From NCBI GenBank assembly GCA_015523545.1, contig WAKB01000012.1, positions 1 through 64,000 on the forward strand: a DNA stretch of 64,000 nucleotides, given 5' to 3'. The notes under the pieces were generated by a model. The model was not told where the DNA came from. It did not search any database and worked only from the letters and a program-made list of their open reading frames with translations. The position numbers and the translations under genes are program-made. The stretch comes from Candidatus Geothermarchaeota archaeon. GTDB taxonomy: Archaea; Thermoproteota; Nitrososphaeria; Geothermarchaeales; JDFR-13. Shown piece after piece: positions 17,401 to 64,000 of the stretch; the first letter of the stretch is position 1; each line of letters opens with the position of its first letter.

Positions 17401-18318
17401 ATGAAGCTCTTCATAGGCTCGATACCCACTGACGAGGAGGTACACAAGCTTAGACATGGGATAGATGATATCCTCTCTAAGCTTGAGCCGGACTACATAA
17501 TCCTTGTGGTTGGGGAGGACGCCGCCATACATAACGTCGCGGTTGCAGAGCTCCACATGTTCGAGTATAAGAACGTGATATACTCTGCATGGGGAGTGTA
17601 TGAAGACATTATATACCGCCTCGAGAACAGTTTCGACTATAGAGTCGTGGTATACCCAGTAACCGGCGAGTATAGATGCCCAGAGACGGGGTTCACAGGG
17701 AGGTTTAAGGGCAGGGTCTCCCTAGATCAGTTCCTCTATATGGAGCTTGTGAAACCCCTCTCAGACCTGGTTGAGGAGGAGGTCGAGGCGACGCTCTACC
17801 TGAGCGACACCTATGCATCAGGAGTGTTAGAGAGGGTTGTACGCGACCTCTTCGCGGTTGAGAATAGGATCAGGGGTGGATGGAGACTCGCGATCCATGG
17901 TGATGGGGAGCCCCAGAGATCAACATGGACGGTGGACTGGAGAGCTATAAACCCCTACGAGGATATAGGGATAGAGGCTGTGGCAAAGCTGAGAATGGGT
18001 GGCCTAGCCTATAACCAGGGGCTATACAAAACGATGATGGATCTCCTAGAGAATGGACGTATAGTCGACGATGCACTCAAGACGATCAATAGCGTCTACC
18101 TCGTAGGGACAAACTCTGATAGGGAGGAGTACATCTTGATGGTGGACCACCTAGCTGATCTACCGATAATGACTGGTGAGCTGGCGAAGATGTTACTAGC
18201 GACTAGGATACTCCGCTTCTCAGGCACCTTGATAGACGATGTGGAGAGCCCAGTCTATAGGCTTGCTGAGAGCTGTGGATCGGGGCTCGAGAACCTACTC
18301 AGGGAGCTCGTCTCCTAG
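17401..18318 (+). CDS. Hypothetical protein, possible divergent CARF/Csx1-like protein
   Basis: Start moved from 17296 to ATG 17401 (MKLFIGSIPTDEE...). Region order resembles Csx1: ...VVYPVTGEYRCPETGFTGRFKG...MELVKPLSDLVEEEVEATLYLSDTYASG... Confidence 0.35.
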   Translation: MKLFIGSIPTDEEVHKLRHGIDDILSKLEPDYIILVVGEDAAIHNVAVAELHMFEYKNVIYSAWGVYEDIIYRLENSFDYRVVVYPVTGEYRCPETGFTGRFKGRVSLDQFLYMELVKPLSDLVEEEVEATLYLSDTYASGVLERVVRDLFAVENRIRGGWRLAIHGDGEPQRSTWTVDWRAINPYEDIGIEAVAKLRMGGLAYNQGLYKTMMDLLENGRIVDDALKTINSVYLVGTNSDREEYILMVDHLADLPIMTGELAKMLLATRILRFSGTLIDDVESPVYRLAESCGSGLENLLRELVS

Positions 18319-19367
18319 CCATGCCGAAGCTCCATCCGAACCCTCTTGATCTCCTCTATCAGGAGGGGGATCACCTCTCTATAGTCACCGACTATTCCGT
18401 AGTCGGCGTTCTCGAATATCGGGGCGTAGCGGTCGATGTTTATAGCTACGATTATCTTCGCCTCCCTAATCCCGAAGATGTGCTGGGCGGCCCCGCTTAT
18501 ACCCACAGCTATGTAGAGGTCTGGCTTGACAGTCTTCCCCGTCTGGCCGATCTGCCTATCATGGCTTATCCACCCAGCATCCACCGCCTTCCTACTTCCA
18601 CCCACGACGCCTCCCAATAGGTTTGCCAGCTCCTCCAGTAGTTTGAAGCCCTCCTTACTGCCCAGCCCCTTCCCACCAGCAACTATTACACGGGCCTTCT
18701 CAATAGGTATCTCCTCAGCCTTCTCGATCCTCCTGCTCTCCAGGAGCTCAACCCCATAGCTGGGCAGCTCTCCAAGGCTATACTCAACCAGCTCACCCTT
18801 CCTACCGGGCTGCCTCTCGGGCATTGGGAATACGTTGGGCCTGACACTACCCATCACCGGCTTACCCCACCTCGTCTTTATATGGGCCAGCATGTAGGCT
18901 CCGAAGGGCGGCCTGATCAGTATGATATCCCTCGTCTCCTTATCCACCGATACCATAGTCAGATCCGCCGTTATCCCGGTCTTCAGGTTGTTGGCTATGT
19001 TTGGGGCTAGCTCCCTACCCCTCAGTGTACCAGCTACCAATAGTCCCTCAGGCTTATACTCCCTACAGAGCTCTGAGACGACGTATCCATATAGGGGTGG
19101 GGAATACTTCTCGAGCCTCTCGTCATCAACGAGGAAGACCTTGTCAACACCATATTCCCAGGCCGTCTCGACGAGGTGTGAGACGCCACTACCTATGATG
19201 ACCCCGCCTACATATGTCTCGAGTATGTCTGCGACCTCACGGGCCTTTGATAGGAGCTGTAGACTAGCCTCATGTATCTCGCCGTCCACCACCTCTAGGT
19301 AGACCCATACCCCCCTAAATACACCCTCCTTTAGTGGTGACCACTCGCTACACCTGGGCTCGGACAT
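18315..19367 (-). CDS. fixB: Electron transfer flavoprotein alpha subunit
   Basis: PDLYIAVGISGAAQHIFGIREAKIIVAINIDRYAPIFENADYGIVGD. Confidence 0.95.
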   Translation of the reverse strand: MSEPRCSEWSPLKEGVFRGVWVYLEVVDGEIHEASLQLLSKAREVADILETYVGGVIIGSGVSHLVETAWEYGVDKVFLVDDERLEKYSPPLYGYVVSELCREYKPEGLLVAGTLRGRELAPNIANNLKTGITADLTMVSVDKETRDIILIRPPFGAYMLAHIKTRWGKPVMGSVRPNVFPMPERQPGRKGELVEYSLGELPSYGVELLESRRIEKAEEIPIEKARVIVAGGKGLGSKEGFKLLEELANLLGGVVGGSRKAVDAGWISHDRQIGQTGKTVKPDLYIAVGISGAAQHIFGIREAKIIVAINIDRYAPIFENADYGIVGDYREVIPLLIEEIKRVRMELRHG

Positions 19368-20162
19368 CTATATCACCCCCTCCTCGACAAGTGCCTGGAC
19401 AAGCTTTCTAACAGCCTCTCTGAGGTCGCCCTCGAAGATGATGTTCTTCCTCGGAACCTTTGGGGTGAACTCCACCTTAGAAACTATTGTGGGGCTCCCC
19501 CTCAGCCCTACACAGTTGGGGTCTAGGCCGAGGTCCTTATTGCTCCACGTCTCGATCGGCCTCTCAATAACGGCTCTCAGCTTATCCCTCAGTGTCACCT
19601 GCCTAGGCTCCAAGGAATACATCTTGGCGGATATAAGGGCCGGCTTCGCAAGCCTATACCTCTCGACCCTATCCTCCAGCTCACGGGTGACTATGAAGCC
19701 GTCCCCAGTATACTCCACGTCTATCGCGTAGTAGACGTAGGGCAGGTCTAGCCACGAAGCCACCTGGGCCCCTATATGCCCAGTCGAGCTGTCTATCGTC
19801 TCCTGCCCCATAACTATCAGGTCATACCTCCCAATCTTCTCGATCGTCTTGGCCAGTACATAGGAAGTGGCGAGAGTATCTGCACCCGCGAATACCCTGT
19901 CAGATACGAGGATCGCCCTATCCACACCCATGCCTAGGACATGCTCCAGCCCAGCAACTGCGTGGGGAGGGGCCATGGATATGGCCGTTACACTCCCCCC
20001 GTAGCGGTCGCGTAGGCGTAGGGCGAGCTCCACAGCTACAAGGTCGTGGGGATTCACTACGCTGGGGACACCCTCCCTAACGAGGGTGCCGGTCTTGGGG
20101 TCTATATTCACGTTCGTCGTGTTCGGGACGTATTTAATCCCGACTATTATGTCCAACCCCAT
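19368..20162 (-). CDS. fixA: Electron transfer flavoprotein beta subunit
   Basis: MGLDIIVGIKYVPNTTNVNIDPKTGTLVREGVPSVVNPHDLVAVE. Confidence 0.95.
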   Translation of the reverse strand: MGLDIIVGIKYVPNTTNVNIDPKTGTLVREGVPSVVNPHDLVAVELALRLRDRYGGSVTAISMAPPHAVAGLEHVLGMGVDRAILVSDRVFAGADTLATSYVLAKTIEKIGRYDLIVMGQETIDSSTGHIGAQVASWLDLPYVYYAIDVEYTGDGFIVTRELEDRVERYRLAKPALISAKMYSLEPRQVTLRDKLRAVIERPIETWSNKDLGLDPNCVGLRGSPTIVSKVEFTPKVPRKNIIFEGDLREAVRKLVQALVEEGVI

Positions 20163-20229
20163 CTCTAACTACCCCCATACCTCCAATCATACATCTTGTA
20201 TATCCACCCGGTTGACGGGTTGGTATATA

Positions 20230-20538
20230 CTAGCTGAAGCGGAAGTGTATCCCACGGCCACTCCTTGGATACTCCCATGTGATAGCCTCCTCTGGACAGA
20301 CAACCCTACATGTCCCACACTCGACACACCCCTCATAGCTGAAGAGGACGTCATCCCCATGGGTAGTATAGCATCCCGTAGGGCATAGGAGTACACAGGG
20401 CTTATAGTTACAGTCCCTACACTTCGAGGTGTCCAGCTTTATATGGGGCCTTGGATCGACGTCCCAGATATTATTGTTCAGGAGGTCCTCAAGCCTAATC
20501 TTCCTCCTCTTCCTCTCCTCTGGAGCCTGGCTACTCAT
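20230..20538 (-). CDS. fixX: Ferredoxin-like protein FixX
   Basis: CRDCNYKPCVLLCPTGCY ... CVECGTCRVVCPEEAITWEYPRSGRGIHF. Confidence 0.92.
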   Translation of the reverse strand: MSSQAPEERKRRKIRLEDLLNNNIWDVDPRPHIKLDTSKCRDCNYKPCVLLCPTGCYTTHGDDVLFSYEGCVECGTCRVVCPEEAITWEYPRSGRGIHFRFS

Positions 20539-21803
20539 AGCTTCCTATACACCTCCAAGAGGTCGAGAAATATACGGGGGAGGCTGACGAGGCCTCTCCT
20601 CGCCTCTGAGAAGGCCTTCGAGAACTTGTAGCCCTCATAGTCAAACTCGTAGAGCCTCCTGAGGAGACCTGTTAGGAGGGCGGGATACTCGTTGAATAGG
20701 CGGGGATTCATGTAGAGGTCGTGGACACCCCTAAACTTCTCAAGGTCACGGCCTACATAGCTATTCCTAAGCATCTCCTCATACCTCTTGAGGCGTGAGG
20801 CACTATAGTCGCCGTCAGCCTCCTCAATAGCCTTGGCAGCCAGCATGCCCGAGTATGCGGCTGTATCCACCCCTCTATAGGTATAGCCCATGTTTATCAA
20901 GAGTCCGGCGGCGTCACCCGTCACAATAAGGCCGTCCCATACTAGGCGTGGAGGCCTGATCGCCCTTGGATCGGCGGGTATCATGTGGGCAGAGTACTCC
21001 ATGATCCTCCCATTCTCCACGTATCTGCTGAAGAGTGGGCCTATCCTAAGCTCCTCAACCATGTCGTAGATATGCCTCCTCATCCCCTGTACGGCTCCCT
21101 CCAAGTAGATCACGAGTCCAAGGCTGAGGCTATCCCTATTAGTGTAGAAGAAGCCTCCACCGGGTAGCCCGTCACTCACACTACCCATGAATACCCAGGC
21201 TAGGCCCTCATCCTCTCCGAGGCCGAAGAACTTCTCTATATCCCCCTTATCCACCTTGATAACCTCCTTCACCCCGAGGGCTACATGCCTGAGGGTGAGT
21301 CTCTCCACGAGGCCGCTCCTCTCCAGTACGAGTCTGTTTACACCCTCGGCATCCACGACGACATCTGCCTCTAGCTCGTCATCACCAGAGACTATACCGG
21401 CTACGCGGCCATCCCTCATCAATAGCCTGTCAACAACTACCTCCGTGATGAGCGTCGCACCTGCATCCACAGCCCTCCCAGCCATCCAGTCGGTTAGATC
21501 AGTTAGATACGTGGTGAAGCTCTTCCTACCCCTACCAGTATACTCGACCGTTACATACTCCTCCTTGTTGACTATGGATAGCCTCTCCTTAACCACCCAC
21601 CTATGGATAGGGGCTTTGCCAAGCCCGTCGAAGGCCTCCTCCAGGGGCTTTGCATATACACGGCCCCCGAACATGTTTTTAGACCCCGGTTTCCGGCCCC
21701 TCTCTATCAGGGCCACTCTAAAACCCTTCTTAGCCAGGTTGTAGGCGGCTGAGGATCCGGCTGGCCCCGCCCCTATAACTATCACGTCGAACCTATCCCC
21801 CAT
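20535..21803 (-). CDS. fixC: FixC/ETF-quinone oxidoreductase-like FAD protein
   Basis: MGDRFDVIVIGAGPAGSSAAYNLAKKGFRVALIERG; fixCXAB operon context. Confidence 0.92.
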   Translation of the reverse strand: MGDRFDVIVIGAGPAGSSAAYNLAKKGFRVALIERGRKPGSKNMFGGRVYAKPLEEAFDGLGKAPIHRWVVKERLSIVNKEEYVTVEYTGRGRKSFTTYLTDLTDWMAGRAVDAGATLITEVVVDRLLMRDGRVAGIVSGDDELEADVVVDAEGVNRLVLERSGLVERLTLRHVALGVKEVIKVDKGDIEKFFGLGEDEGLAWVFMGSVSDGLPGGGFFYTNRDSLSLGLVIYLEGAVQGMRRHIYDMVEELRIGPLFSRYVENGRIMEYSAHMIPADPRAIRPPRLVWDGLIVTGDAAGLLINMGYTYRGVDTAAYSGMLAAKAIEEADGDYSASRLKRYEEMLRNSYVGRDLEKFRGVHDLYMNPRLFNEYPALLTGLLRRLYEFDYEGYKFSKAFSEARRGLVSLPRIFLDLLEVYRKL

Positions 21804-25991: not shown

Positions 25992-26591
25992 CTACTTGAA
26001 GTATTCCTGGATAACCTTCTTCACACCCCTCCTGAGGATCTCGCTGAGTGTCGCCTCCTTAATACCCAGTATCTCACTCAGCTCCTTTAACGAGGTCTTC
26101 CTGGGGAAGTCGAAGAACCCCATCTTATAGGCTAGGTATAGGACCTGCTCCTGTCTATCAGTCAGTATCCTGCTCTTCCCATATCTCCTCGTATACCTTA
26201 CCTCATACTCGATGCCCAGCTCCCTATAGATCCTGAAGATCTTCTCAGTAGTCTTGTCGCTGGGGGATAGGAAGGTTATGTTCATCGAGCCGTCCTGCCC
26301 AATGTAACCGTCAAGGATTATACAGCCCTCCTCCACCAGCGGCTTACAGACATCGCAGCCCCTGGATAGGCACCATACACTCGCCTCGTTGTCAACTAGG
26401 TTTAGACCCAGTATCCTGAGATCCTCCTCATCCCTAATACTCCCCACCAGGTCCTTTGGACATGTTACGAGATGGATGATACGCTCCCCATTATTCGTTA
26501 TCGAGAGTATCTTTATACGGCTCCCATACTTCCTGTAGAGCCTACACCTGCTCCTAGCGATATCAATCGAGACCTCGGATATACTCATCAC
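25992..26591 (-). CDS. Bat-type (HTH_10) transcriptional regulator with Cys-rich sensor region
   Basis: LTDRQEQVLYLAYKMGFFDFPRKTSLKELSEILGIKEATLSEILRRGVKKVIQEYF; Cys cluster VWCLSRGCDVCKPLVEEGC. Confidence 0.85.
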   Translation of the reverse strand: MMSISEVSIDIARSRCRLYRKYGSRIKILSITNNGERIIHLVTCPKDLVGSIRDEEDLRILGLNLVDNEASVWCLSRGCDVCKPLVEEGCIILDGYIGQDGSMNITFLSPSDKTTEKIFRIYRELGIEYEVRYTRRYGKSRILTDRQEQVLYLAYKMGFFDFPRKTSLKELSEILGIKEATLSEILRRGVKKVIQEYFK

Positions 26592-26685: not shown

Positions 26686-28218
26686 CTATGGCTTGAGAAC
26701 CTCTACAACACTCTTAAGGCCATAGGTCTTGACGAAGTTGTATAGGAAGATCAGGAATCCTACTGCCATTATGAAAGCCCCTATAGCTGCTACTGACATG
26801 TATCCCGCATACTCACCGTTGAAGTACAGTGTCCTCCTAAGCATGCCAGCGGCCCCAGCGGCTCCCTGGCTGAGACCCATGACCACGGCACCGACGAAGA
26901 AGAGGACTATGTGTAGATATGAGAGCCTCCTATCCATCTCCTTACCAGTGAGGATCGGGGCTAGGGCGTAGATCGCCGCGAAGACCGTCAGGCTCAGCCC
27001 AGCCAGTAGCTGGATATGGCCATGTATCCCTATGACCCACTGGGTATTGTGGAAATACCTGTTCATAGCTATGTTTGCCTGTATCATGCCGGCGGAGCCG
27101 CCCATCGCATATCCAAGTATGGAGAGGACTATGGCGAGCAACGCTGGGCTGTATTCAACGGGTCTAGCCCGCCAGATAGTCATCAGGACTGCGAACATGG
27201 TAAGACCCATCGTTATCAGCTCGCCCCATGTGAATATCTGTCCCTGGACGAGTAGGAATAGTGGCTGTGGAGTATCGCTCATCATGTGGTGGTTCCAAAC
27301 GAACAGGCTTATCACCAGATCGGCCAGGATCACGCTCCTAACCACGTTCTCACCGAATAGAGGCTGGTTAGTAAGTAGCGGTACTAGGAAGTACCAGGTA
27401 GCAGCTGTGAATATCAGGACGTTGCCATCCGCTATGAGGTCTAGGCCCCACCAGAAGACGTTCTTATAGATCAGCGGGTCTATCAGGCTGGGGCTGAGCT
27501 CGTTACCCAAGACCTCCGTTATCCCATATAGGCCTATCGTGAGGGATACTAGTAGGAGGACAATAGCGTTGAGGGTAGTGTCTACACAGCCCCTAAATAC
27601 GCCGACCACGAAGACTGGATAGTTATTCACCCTTGGTAGATACTCCTTAATACCCTTGGTCTTGGCCTTCAGCTTATCCAGGTTGAATGCGAGTGTAAGG
27701 AGCTCCTTCGCTACATATCCAGGCCCACCAGCACCCCTCTGGGGGAGGAATATGGTGGCGAACATGTTGAAGAAGAACATGAGCACGGAGATGAAGATTA
27801 GGGAGCTTCCAAAACCGAACACTATCTGCTGGACACCATTATACTCAACCACTGGAAGGGGCCAGTAGAGCGTGTATAGGGGGCTGTAGCTGAATAGGAA
27901 GCCGGAGAGCCAGGTTATCAATACACCAGCCATCATGACATACCAAGCTAGGTTGGCGACCCACTCACTGTATAGATCCTTCTTAAGCACCACAGGCACG
28001 AGGTAGTAGAAGGCGCCCATAACCGCCATGTAGGCCCAGCCATATATACCTACGAAGGGGTGGACAGTCATCATGGCGTAGTAATGCTCAGGTGTGTAGA
28101 TCTCGGTTAAGAGGTTTAGTATGCGGAGCCTCATCAAGATGCCCTCTATACCCGCGACGCCCAGCCAGAAGACCCCTGCCAACACGTATTTAAGGGCTAG
28201 CTTCTCCCTCGGCCCCAT
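26686..28218 (-). CDS. Heme-copper oxidase/NO-reductase superfamily subunit I with altered TM6 active-site motif
   Basis: TM2 TVHPFVGIYGWAYMAVMGAFYYLVP; TM7 VWNHHMMSDTPQP; TM10 HNTQWVIGIHGHIQLLAG; TM6 FWWGLDLIADGNVLIF lacks the usual His. Confidence 0.85.
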   Translation of the reverse strand: MGPREKLALKYVLAGVFWLGVAGIEGILMRLRILNLLTEIYTPEHYYAMMTVHPFVGIYGWAYMAVMGAFYYLVPVVLKKDLYSEWVANLAWYVMMAGVLITWLSGFLFSYSPLYTLYWPLPVVEYNGVQQIVFGFGSSLIFISVLMFFFNMFATIFLPQRGAGGPGYVAKELLTLAFNLDKLKAKTKGIKEYLPRVNNYPVFVVGVFRGCVDTTLNAIVLLLVSLTIGLYGITEVLGNELSPSLIDPLIYKNVFWWGLDLIADGNVLIFTAATWYFLVPLLTNQPLFGENVVRSVILADLVISLFVWNHHMMSDTPQPLFLLVQGQIFTWGELITMGLTMFAVLMTIWRARPVEYSPALLAIVLSILGYAMGGSAGMIQANIAMNRYFHNTQWVIGIHGHIQLLAGLSLTVFAAIYALAPILTGKEMDRRLSYLHIVLFFVGAVVMGLSQGAAGAAGMLRRTLYFNGEYAGYMSVAAIGAFIMAVGFLIFLYNFVKTYGLKSVVEVLKP

Positions 28219-28219
28219 G

Positions 28220-28780
28220 CTAACCCACCTCCTCCACGACTATCGCGTCCTCGATATACATGTAGGGGTGCTCCGGCCCACTGTACTCTGTACTCCTGAT
28301 CGTATAGTTACCAGGCTCGGTGAAGACCCAGACCAGCCGGTTCTCATAGCCGGGCACGACCTGCATCTGGAAGACCAGCATACCATCCTCCCTGAAGACC
28401 CCGAAGCCGTAGGTCAGGTCCTCACTATACACCTTGAACTCGACGGGCTCCCCTAATGGGATGACTATCGGCTCCTCAGGAAGGATGAAGCTGTGGTTCT
28501 CCATCCTTATCACGATGGTCTTCACAGGCTCCTCATCCAGGTAGATGTTGTACTGCATCGAGGGTATCAGGGGGCTGAAGAAGATTATGTTCCCTATTAT
28601 AGCCACTGTTATCAGGCTGTACATCCATATCTTCTCACGCCTATCCATCCCCTTATGGACACCGCCGTCGGTCGATATCTTGGGGGGTTTACGAGTCTTG
28701 TAGATGAATAGTAGGATGACTATGGTGTAGGTTGTTATGAGACTGTAGTAGAACATCTCTACGGCCCATTGGACCTCCAT
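28220..28780 (-). CDS. Heme-copper oxidase subunit II-like protein lacking CuA
   Basis: 2 TM helices, then a cupredoxin domain: SEDLTYGFGVF...QMQVVPG...EPGNYTIRSTEYSGPEHPYM aligned to the DVxHGF...CxEyCGxxHxxM template. Confidence 0.8.
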   Translation of the reverse strand: MEVQWAVEMFYYSLITTYTIVILLFIYKTRKPPKISTDGGVHKGMDRREKIWMYSLITVAIIGNIIFFSPLIPSMQYNIYLDEEPVKTIVIRMENHSFILPEEPIVIPLGEPVEFKVYSEDLTYGFGVFREDGMLVFQMQVVPGYENRLVWVFTEPGNYTIRSTEYSGPEHPYMYIEDAIVVEEVG

Positions 28781-32440: not shown

Positions 32441-33037
32441 CTACTCATAGACCTGGAGAGCGCCCTTAAGGTTCATGAAGGAGTGGCCATAGCCGCAGAC
32501 GACGTAACAGACAAAGTCGAATACACCGGTCTTATCCGCCTTGAAGACCACTGTGTGCTGGTTAATGGCGTCCTGAGGCTCATTCTGGAAGAACTCCTGT
32601 AATGTCTTGGCAGTACCGCTGAATGCCCTGTAGTTAGTGGCTACTGTTACTCCATAGCCTATAATCTGTAATCCGTGATCAACCTGGTTATTCTCCAAGG
32701 CCTCCATTATCCTCTGCTCTAGTGGACCATTATCTAGGCCACCTACACCCCTCTGCTTACTCTCCTCCTCCAGTGGGCCGTAAAAGTCCTCGGCAAAGGA
32801 TCTGGCGTTGAGGAAGATTATCTTTAGGGTCGTCCCCTTCTTAACCATGATCTTGTCCACGGGGTTGTAGTTCGAGTCGTATATCTTGAAGCCCCAGTAG
32901 TAGCCAATAACTATGTATGTCTCCTCACCAGCCTCTTCCCCGCCTGTCTCACCAGCGGGGCTACTCATCATGTAGTAGCCAGCAATTGCTGCTATAAGGA
33001 TAACGATGGCGACACCTGCAATAACCTTCTGATCCAT
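32441..33037 (-). CDS. Membrane-anchored CuA-type cupredoxin (cytochrome oxidase subunit II-like, single TM)
   Basis: N-terminal TM; FDFVCYVVCGYGHSFMNLKGALQVYE = C-x3-C-x3-H-x2-M with upstream DHGLQI. Confidence 0.88.
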   Translation of the reverse strand: MDQKVIAGVAIVILIAAIAGYYMMSSPAGETGGEEAGEETYIVIGYYWGFKIYDSNYNPVDKIMVKKGTTLKIIFLNARSFAEDFYGPLEEESKQRGVGGLDNGPLEQRIMEALENNQVDHGLQIIGYGVTVATNYRAFSGTAKTLQEFFQNEPQDAINQHTVVFKADKTGVFDFVCYVVCGYGHSFMNLKGALQVYE

Positions 33038-63892: not shown

Positions 63893-64000
63893 CTATATCA
63901 CGTCCTGCCTCCTCAACTGTAGATACGCCAACCCTGCGAATAGGATTGTGTAACCGATCACCACTGCCTGTGAAGTCCCTAGGACTAGCCATACATTCTC
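63893..64000 (-). CDS. C-terminal end of a truncated membrane protein (possibly transporter permease)
   Basis: Manual translation ENVWLVLGTSQAVVIGYTILFAGLAYLQLRRQDVI*; hydrophobic TM followed by a basic tail. Confidence 0.45.
   Translation of the reverse strand, partial: ENVWLVLGTSQAVVIGYTILFAGLAYLQLRRQDVI

Follow-up and report, generated by a model that had tools for sequence, protein, structure and literature searches.

The locus

The window analysed here comprises 64,000 nucleotides from the assembly of a Candidatus Geothermarchaeota archaeon (GCA_015523545.1, contig WAKB01000012.1, positions 1 to 64,000). Its minus strand carries the genes for subunit I and subunit II of a heme-copper oxidoreductase, an HTH_10 regulator, a stand-alone cupredoxin and the end of a nos operon (Table 1). 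The open reading frame of subunit I fills exactly the interval given in the table, the plus strand there is full of stops, and the COX1 Pfam match spans the full length of the protein.

Table 1. Features of the window and of related loci. Positions refer to the window unless a contig or locus is named.
Feature	Position	Strand	Evidence or remark
Subunit I (510 aa) of the heme-copper oxidoreductase family, with D-x3-D in the active site	26686..28218	-	COX1 Pfam 2.2e-65 and 21 relatives
His53, low-spin heme ligand in TM2	28060..28062	-	alignment
Asp260 codon, CuB-histidine position	27439..27441	-	Asp in every family row (19/19) against His in every A/B oxidase (20/20)
Asp264 codon, position of cross-linked Tyr or cNOR Glu	27427..27429	-	Asp in every family row (19/19) against Tyr in every A/B oxidase (20/20) and Glu in cNOR
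His310-His311, remaining TM7 metal ligands	27286..27291	-	invariant in family and all references
Glu333 in TM8, invariant	27220..27222	-	at most one residue from the cNOR TM8 glutamate; register ambiguous by one
His399-Gly-His401, high-spin and low-spin heme ligands	27016..27024	-	alignment
Subunit II, cupredoxin (COX2) domain, 186 aa, CuA lost	28220..28780	-	Pfam COX2 6e-5 and alignment
HTH_10 regulator with conserved C-x2-C, downstream of subunit I	25992..26591	-	Pfam HTH_10 5e-20
Stand-alone membrane-anchored CuA-type cupredoxin	32441..33037	-	DHGL...CYVVCGYGHSFM; weak nitrosocyanin similarity
nosY-like ABC permease, 3' end	63896..64000	-	nos operon runs past window, contig 63896-70125
Conserved nos-operon membrane protein	L115:6976-7671 (contig 66975-67670)	-	
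H-x3-E family loci	L132:1455-2978(-), L133:2199-3662(-), L134, L135, L136		genomes G384, G454, G399, G483

Subunit I shows the hallmarks of the superfamily, namely the COX1 fold, the heme-ligand histidines of TM2 and of the TM10 HxH motif, and the histidine pair of TM7. The histidines that a sequence-only reading of this DNA had placed in these helices are present in TVHPF (His53), WNHHMM (His310 and His311) and GIHGH (His399 and His401), and all five are invariant across the whole A/B set. The AlphaFold model of the subunit (pLDDT 75.8, pTM 0.79) resembles oxidase subunit I structures with a TM-score of about 0.76, and the A-type quinol oxidases (cytochrome bo3, aa3-600) share its fold as the top PDB matches.

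Active-site residues

We aligned 19 rows of the D-x3-D family with 15 A-type oxidases, 5 B-type oxidases, one cbb3 and one cNOR. TM6, which the earlier reading described as free of His and Tyr, is FWWGLDLIADGNVLIF and bears Asp260 and Asp264. Its WWGLDLIAD stretch pairs without a gap with the canonical WFFGHPEVY, placing DLIAD on HPEVY, and the distance from Asp260 to His310 is the 50 residues that had been counted. The claim that D-x3-D stands in place of H-x3-Y was borne out in both columns, 260 and 264, in every row of the family and in every A- and B-type oxidase (counts in Table 1); a His at the TM6 position was looked for in the alignment and none was found. TM10 keeps the HxH motif with a one-residue insertion ahead of it (IGIHGH versus VG-HFH), on which the earlier reading was silent. 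A sequencing error or a pseudogene was ruled out, because identical residues and intact frames occur in 21 genomes.

The three CuB histidines of the A-, B- and C-type O2 reductases are therefore incomplete here, with Asp260 replacing one of them. The His-linked Tyr that A- and B-type reductases carry in TM6 is likewise absent, its place being taken by Asp264; the C-type Tyr is in TM7 and lies outside this mapping. This Tyr is needed for O2 reduction. The enzyme shares with cNOR and qNOR (NorB) the HH and HxH motifs, a carboxylate four residues past the TM6 ligand and a TM8 Glu within one residue; in the automatic alignment Glu333 is off by one from the cNOR glutamate, and an exact match is not claimed. 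The TM2 stretch GAFYYLVP...LYS had been called NOR-like and is indeed similar to GATYYLLP...LYS of cNOR, both having GA-YYL-P after the TM2 His. Judged from these residues, a carboxylate in the place of Tyr, as in cNOR and qNOR, and another one in that of the third His may be counted for NO reduction. However, the TM6 ligand is Asp rather than His and the second residue Asp rather than Glu, so that H-x3-E is not found, and the enzyme has a cupredoxin subunit II with no NorC, cytochrome c domain or fused hydrophilic domain and forms a separate clade. With the B-type (ba3-like) oxidases it shares an Asp and a QP/NP stretch after the TM7 HH, whereas their TM6 His and Tyr are both replaced in it.

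Subunit II and the electron donor

The gene for subunit II lies directly upstream of that for subunit I at every locus with flank available. In place of the CuA motif C-x3-C-x3-H-x2-M the window protein has STEYSGPEHPYM, and Tyr takes the place of the first His; the sequence can be written S-T-E-Y-S-G-P-x-H-x-x-M. CuA is absent in 19/20 subunits II. The single full CuA motif in the family (H and C-x3-C, THGF...CTEYCGFRHSEM) is found at L066:1713-2285 in genome G562. The subunit I of this locus is nested among CuA-less relatives as sister to Scotarchaeum (97/91 and 99/94), and CuA was therefore either regained in a single event or lost repeatedly, each time to the same residues. A regain in this lineage is possible.

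Loss of CuA is a known mark of quinol-oxidising branches, and Murali et al. 2022 is said to treat it in that context. Position 25 of subunit I, which corresponds to Asp75 of bo3, is Glu throughout the family. CyoB and QoxB have Asp there and the oxidase of L092 has Glu, but Leu stands there in 14 of the compared oxidases and in most c oxidases. Among the residues of the bo3 quinol site (Arg71, Asp75, His98 and Gln101), the Asp75 position and, mostly, the His98 position are matched, also in the CuA-bearing member. The Arg71 and Gln101 positions are unmatched, and quinol is therefore put at no more than the likely donor. The CuA-less subunit II and the acidic residue at the Asp75 position are shared with the A-type quinol oxidases, which differ in having the third CuB His, the Tyr and fused extra helices and lie outside the clade of the D-x3-D enzymes.

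Elsewhere in the window (18315-21803, minus strand) the open reading frames, read by eye, appear to form a FixABCX-like electron-bifurcating ETF cluster, a likely quinone link of this organism.

Extent and phylogeny of the family

When 84,980 species genomes were scanned with a pattern, nine loci at 62-98% identity emerged, in Candidatus Geothermarchaeum rappei JdFR-14, Scotarchaeum otlingeri JdFR-13, Benthortus lauensis and further Thermoproteota genomes. Profile searches of a class and a phylum sample added members in other families. Members score at least 385 bits, split frames included, and everything else at most 88 bits; given this wide gap, the family is sharply bounded in Thermoproteota. 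D-x3-D is present in all 21 genomes whose member covers the site, from six family-level groups of Thermoproteota; two partial members covering TM6 have it beside the 19 aligned rows, and a 22nd carrier genome (G434) holds only a broken fragment. Even at about 49% sequence identity, no heme or metal ligand varies.

In the PMSF mixture tree the family is a single clade (100/98 and 100/100), and both the A and the B rows sampled lie outside it. Its sister group is not fixed: neither grouping with B (p-AU 0.31) nor grouping with a second unusual heme-copper family, the H-x3-E family described below (0.47), is rejected. A position inside the canonical B-type oxidases, which the earlier reading had named as telling against it, is not what the sampled B rows give. 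A related viral contig was looked for and none was found, and a tblastn search for plasmid-borne relatives returned ordinary oxidases as best matches, at about 26% identity.

Association with N2O reduction genes

The nos operon on the contig of the window has the order nosZ-nosL-unknown-nosD-nosF-nosY (by Pfam). Its last gene ends at 63896, inside the window, and nosZ lies at contig 68485-68700, 4.5 kb beyond it. At the G. rappei locus L029, subunit II is followed by subunit I and HTH_10 and then, convergently, by HTH_10, ABC permease, ABC ATPase, NosD, an unknown gene, NosL and NosZ; here the operon of the two subunits directly adjoins the nos genes (HTH_10-nosY-F-D-?-L-Z). Seven other loci have a relative of the HTH_10 protein next to subunit I/II, in some of them upstream, and relatives also stand next to nos in L029 and L122; the same type of regulator with C-x2-C thus occurs at both nor and nos loci. 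NarO is a regulator of this HTH_10/C-x2-C type. In haloarchaea it is a regulator of denitrification, and control of such genes by NarO has been proposed (PMC10062603).

Homologues of the stand-alone cupredoxin flank nosZ in the related genomes G006 and G018, for which reason the protein is probably an electron carrier for NosZ. We also considered it as the missing CuA of the D-x3-D enzyme; this was weakened by the homologues beside nosZ and by the absence of the protein from most carriers. Every nos operon seen contains a conserved membrane protein of 180-230 aa that has no Pfam match and is encoded between nosL (or nosZ) and nosD.

The association extends beyond single loci. In the phylum sample (398 Thermoproteota genomes) 14 have the enzyme, 9 have nosZ and 5 have both, against 0.3 expected; nosZ thus occurs in 5/14 carriers versus 4/384 non-carriers (naive one-sided Fisher p 2.9e-6, uncorrected for the relatedness of the genomes). 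The class sample gives 6/8 carriers versus 1/292 non-carriers, and 6/7 of its nosZ genomes are carriers, all from one family. Over all 22 carriers, nosZ was found in 10, and at least 11 are without it, some of these genomes being more than 93% complete. The last figure would suit an enzyme with another substrate, a gas sensor or an electron valve, with the nos linkage a coincidence of shared habitat, since more than half of the carriers have no nosZ. Such a role is improbable, however, in view of ligands kept invariant over so wide a range of identity and of the direct adjacency to nos in L029.

Nitric oxide dismutases are also superfamily members with altered ligands, and those described are qNOR-like. 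A dismutase-like reaction (2 NO -> N2 + O2) would accord with the altered ligands of the present enzyme, which is not, however, qNOR-like; because a dismutase makes no N2O, it also fails to explain the pairing with nosZ. We regard this reading as very improbable indeed. The proposed dismutases have been described (PMC6094997).

At least four genomes have no COX1-family protein besides the D-x3-D enzyme. Among them are G. rappei and Scotarchaeum, in which this family therefore offers no other candidate for N2O formation; G014 and G018 combine a nosZ with this gene as their sole COX1-family member. This exclusiveness, together with a fold and family that are those of oxidases, could also point to an oxygen reductase that tolerates the loss of the Tyr and of one His and is used at low O2. 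Yet both residues that define O2 reduction are missing in all members, the carriers that show aerobic capacity have a separate canonical oxidase, and the nos linkage would be left unexplained, so we think an oxygen reductase unlikely. The genome of the window itself has a canonical CuA oxidase, and the organism is therefore able to live on O2.

Nitrite reductase genes occur in some carriers. G562 has NirS, a cd1 protein with an N-terminal cupredoxin-like domain (L120:1388-3208) that is followed by a 644-aa COX2/Fer4_5 protein. G469 has a NirK whose type 1, type 2 and catalytic Asp positions are all intact, judged by eye against the known NirK pattern, and NirK-like proteins are found in G367, G399 and G483. 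The window genome (90% complete) was searched for nirS, true nirK and narG and none was found; its "NirK" match is the cupredoxin end of NosZ, and the narG matches were below the cut-off and are probably other molybdopterin enzymes.

Proposed function

These observations (the positions of the ligands, their invariance, the loss of CuA and the linkage to nos) are best explained by a two-subunit, membrane-bound putative NO reductase of the heme-copper superfamily, with subunit I catalytic, a 2His/2Asp site that likely holds iron, and electrons supplied probably by quinol. We consider this explanation probable. In each of the indirect tests applied the enzyme behaves as a NOR would, and the nitrite reductases of some carriers count in favour. 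Against it stand the carriers without nosZ, the lack of nirS, true nirK and narG in the window genome together with its canonical CuA oxidase, the one-residue offset of the TM8 Glu from cNOR and, for quinol, the two unmatched bo3 positions and the CuA-bearing member that keeps the matched ones. The most likely reaction is the conversion of NO to N2O rather than the use of O2; we infer this role because two metal-site residues are now Asp and because the enzyme is associated with the genes of N2O reduction. The suggestion of the sequence-only reading, a non-canonical and possibly NO-reducing enzyme rather than an O2 reductase, gains support from the linkage to nosZ and the co-occurrence with it, and stays an inference.

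In the proposed mechanism, electrons would enter from membrane quinol or another donor and reach the low-spin heme (His53/His401), from which they would pass to the high-spin heme (His399) facing a non-heme metal. His310, His311 and Asp260 would bind this metal, and Asp264 would either be its fourth ligand or relay protons. Two NO would be joined to N2O at this heme/non-heme metal site, and NosZ of the same cell or of a neighbour would reduce the N2O to N2. Two His with carboxylates are the classic set for non-heme Fe(II), and for this reason iron is the more likely metal, rather than copper. NO reductases with solved structures keep three His on the non-heme metal; the metal of cNOR, and of qNOR in some structures, is bound by three His and a Glu, and a second-sphere Glu serves as proton relay (PMC10256718).

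The gNOR class, a proposed NO reductase of Sulfurimonas, Sulfurovum and Persephonella, reportedly figures as a proposed class in Hemp and Gennis 2008 and Murali 2024. At the position of the oxygen-reductase Tyr, c/qNOR have Glu, eNOR Gln, sNOR and CuANOR Asn, and gNOR Asp (PMC8756737). The eNOR and sNOR, shown or proposed NO reductases related to the B family, resemble the D-x3-D enzyme in their two subunits, cupredoxin subunit II and replaced Tyr, and differ from it in having Gln and Asn where it has Asp. By the Tyr-position residue alone, and compared by description, the enzyme may fit gNOR and no other class. It shares with gNOR the Asp (here Asp264), the two subunits with a cupredoxin-type subunit II and the proposed NO reduction, and gNOR hosts are hydrothermal too. 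It may well be, with nearly an even chance, that the enzyme is an archaeal branch of this published class, with the same putative function and a family already named. Against this, the table in PMC8756737 gives one substitution for gNOR, at the Tyr position, and is silent on its CuB His, for which the present enzyme also has Asp; the hosts here are Thermoproteota, and the comparison is one of descriptions and not of sequences. That the enzyme represents an archaeal NO-reductase family of its own, apart from gNOR, with a quinol-fed 2His/2Asp non-heme iron site and forming an NO-to-N2 module with nos, is a more tentative proposal. NO reductases with substituted ligands are a kind already known. 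As a nos-linked variant in Thermoproteota, the double-Asp enzyme has at the very least received little description, and it may be a family of its own.

A branch in which His is replaced by Asp and Tyr/Glu by a second Asp offers a test of the need for a His3 site in N-N bond formation and of whether iron or copper is used. It also points to the production and, in some cases, the consumption of N2O by uncultured vent archaea. If the proposal is true, Thermoproteota of vents and hot springs possess an NO-to-N2 module, and some of these archaea have this enzyme as their sole COX1-family member. The gene would be annotated as cytochrome c oxidase, and the oxygen and nitrogen assignments made from such genomes are affected.

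Other heme-copper proteins in nosZ genomes and carriers

Four nosZ genomes of the phylum sample have no D-x3-D enzyme. In G315 and G445 there are COX1 proteins of 723-725 aa, presumably the size of qNOR. The other two, G384 and G454, carry the H-x3-E family, whose TM6 reads AHNLMEAMG and whose TM10 reads AHLMTI, with Met for the low-spin-heme His; this family is possibly another, putative NO reductase. Genome G036, which has the D-x3-D enzyme, also encodes a cNOR/qNOR-like NorB (HYWVE; L137:1040-2857, minus strand).
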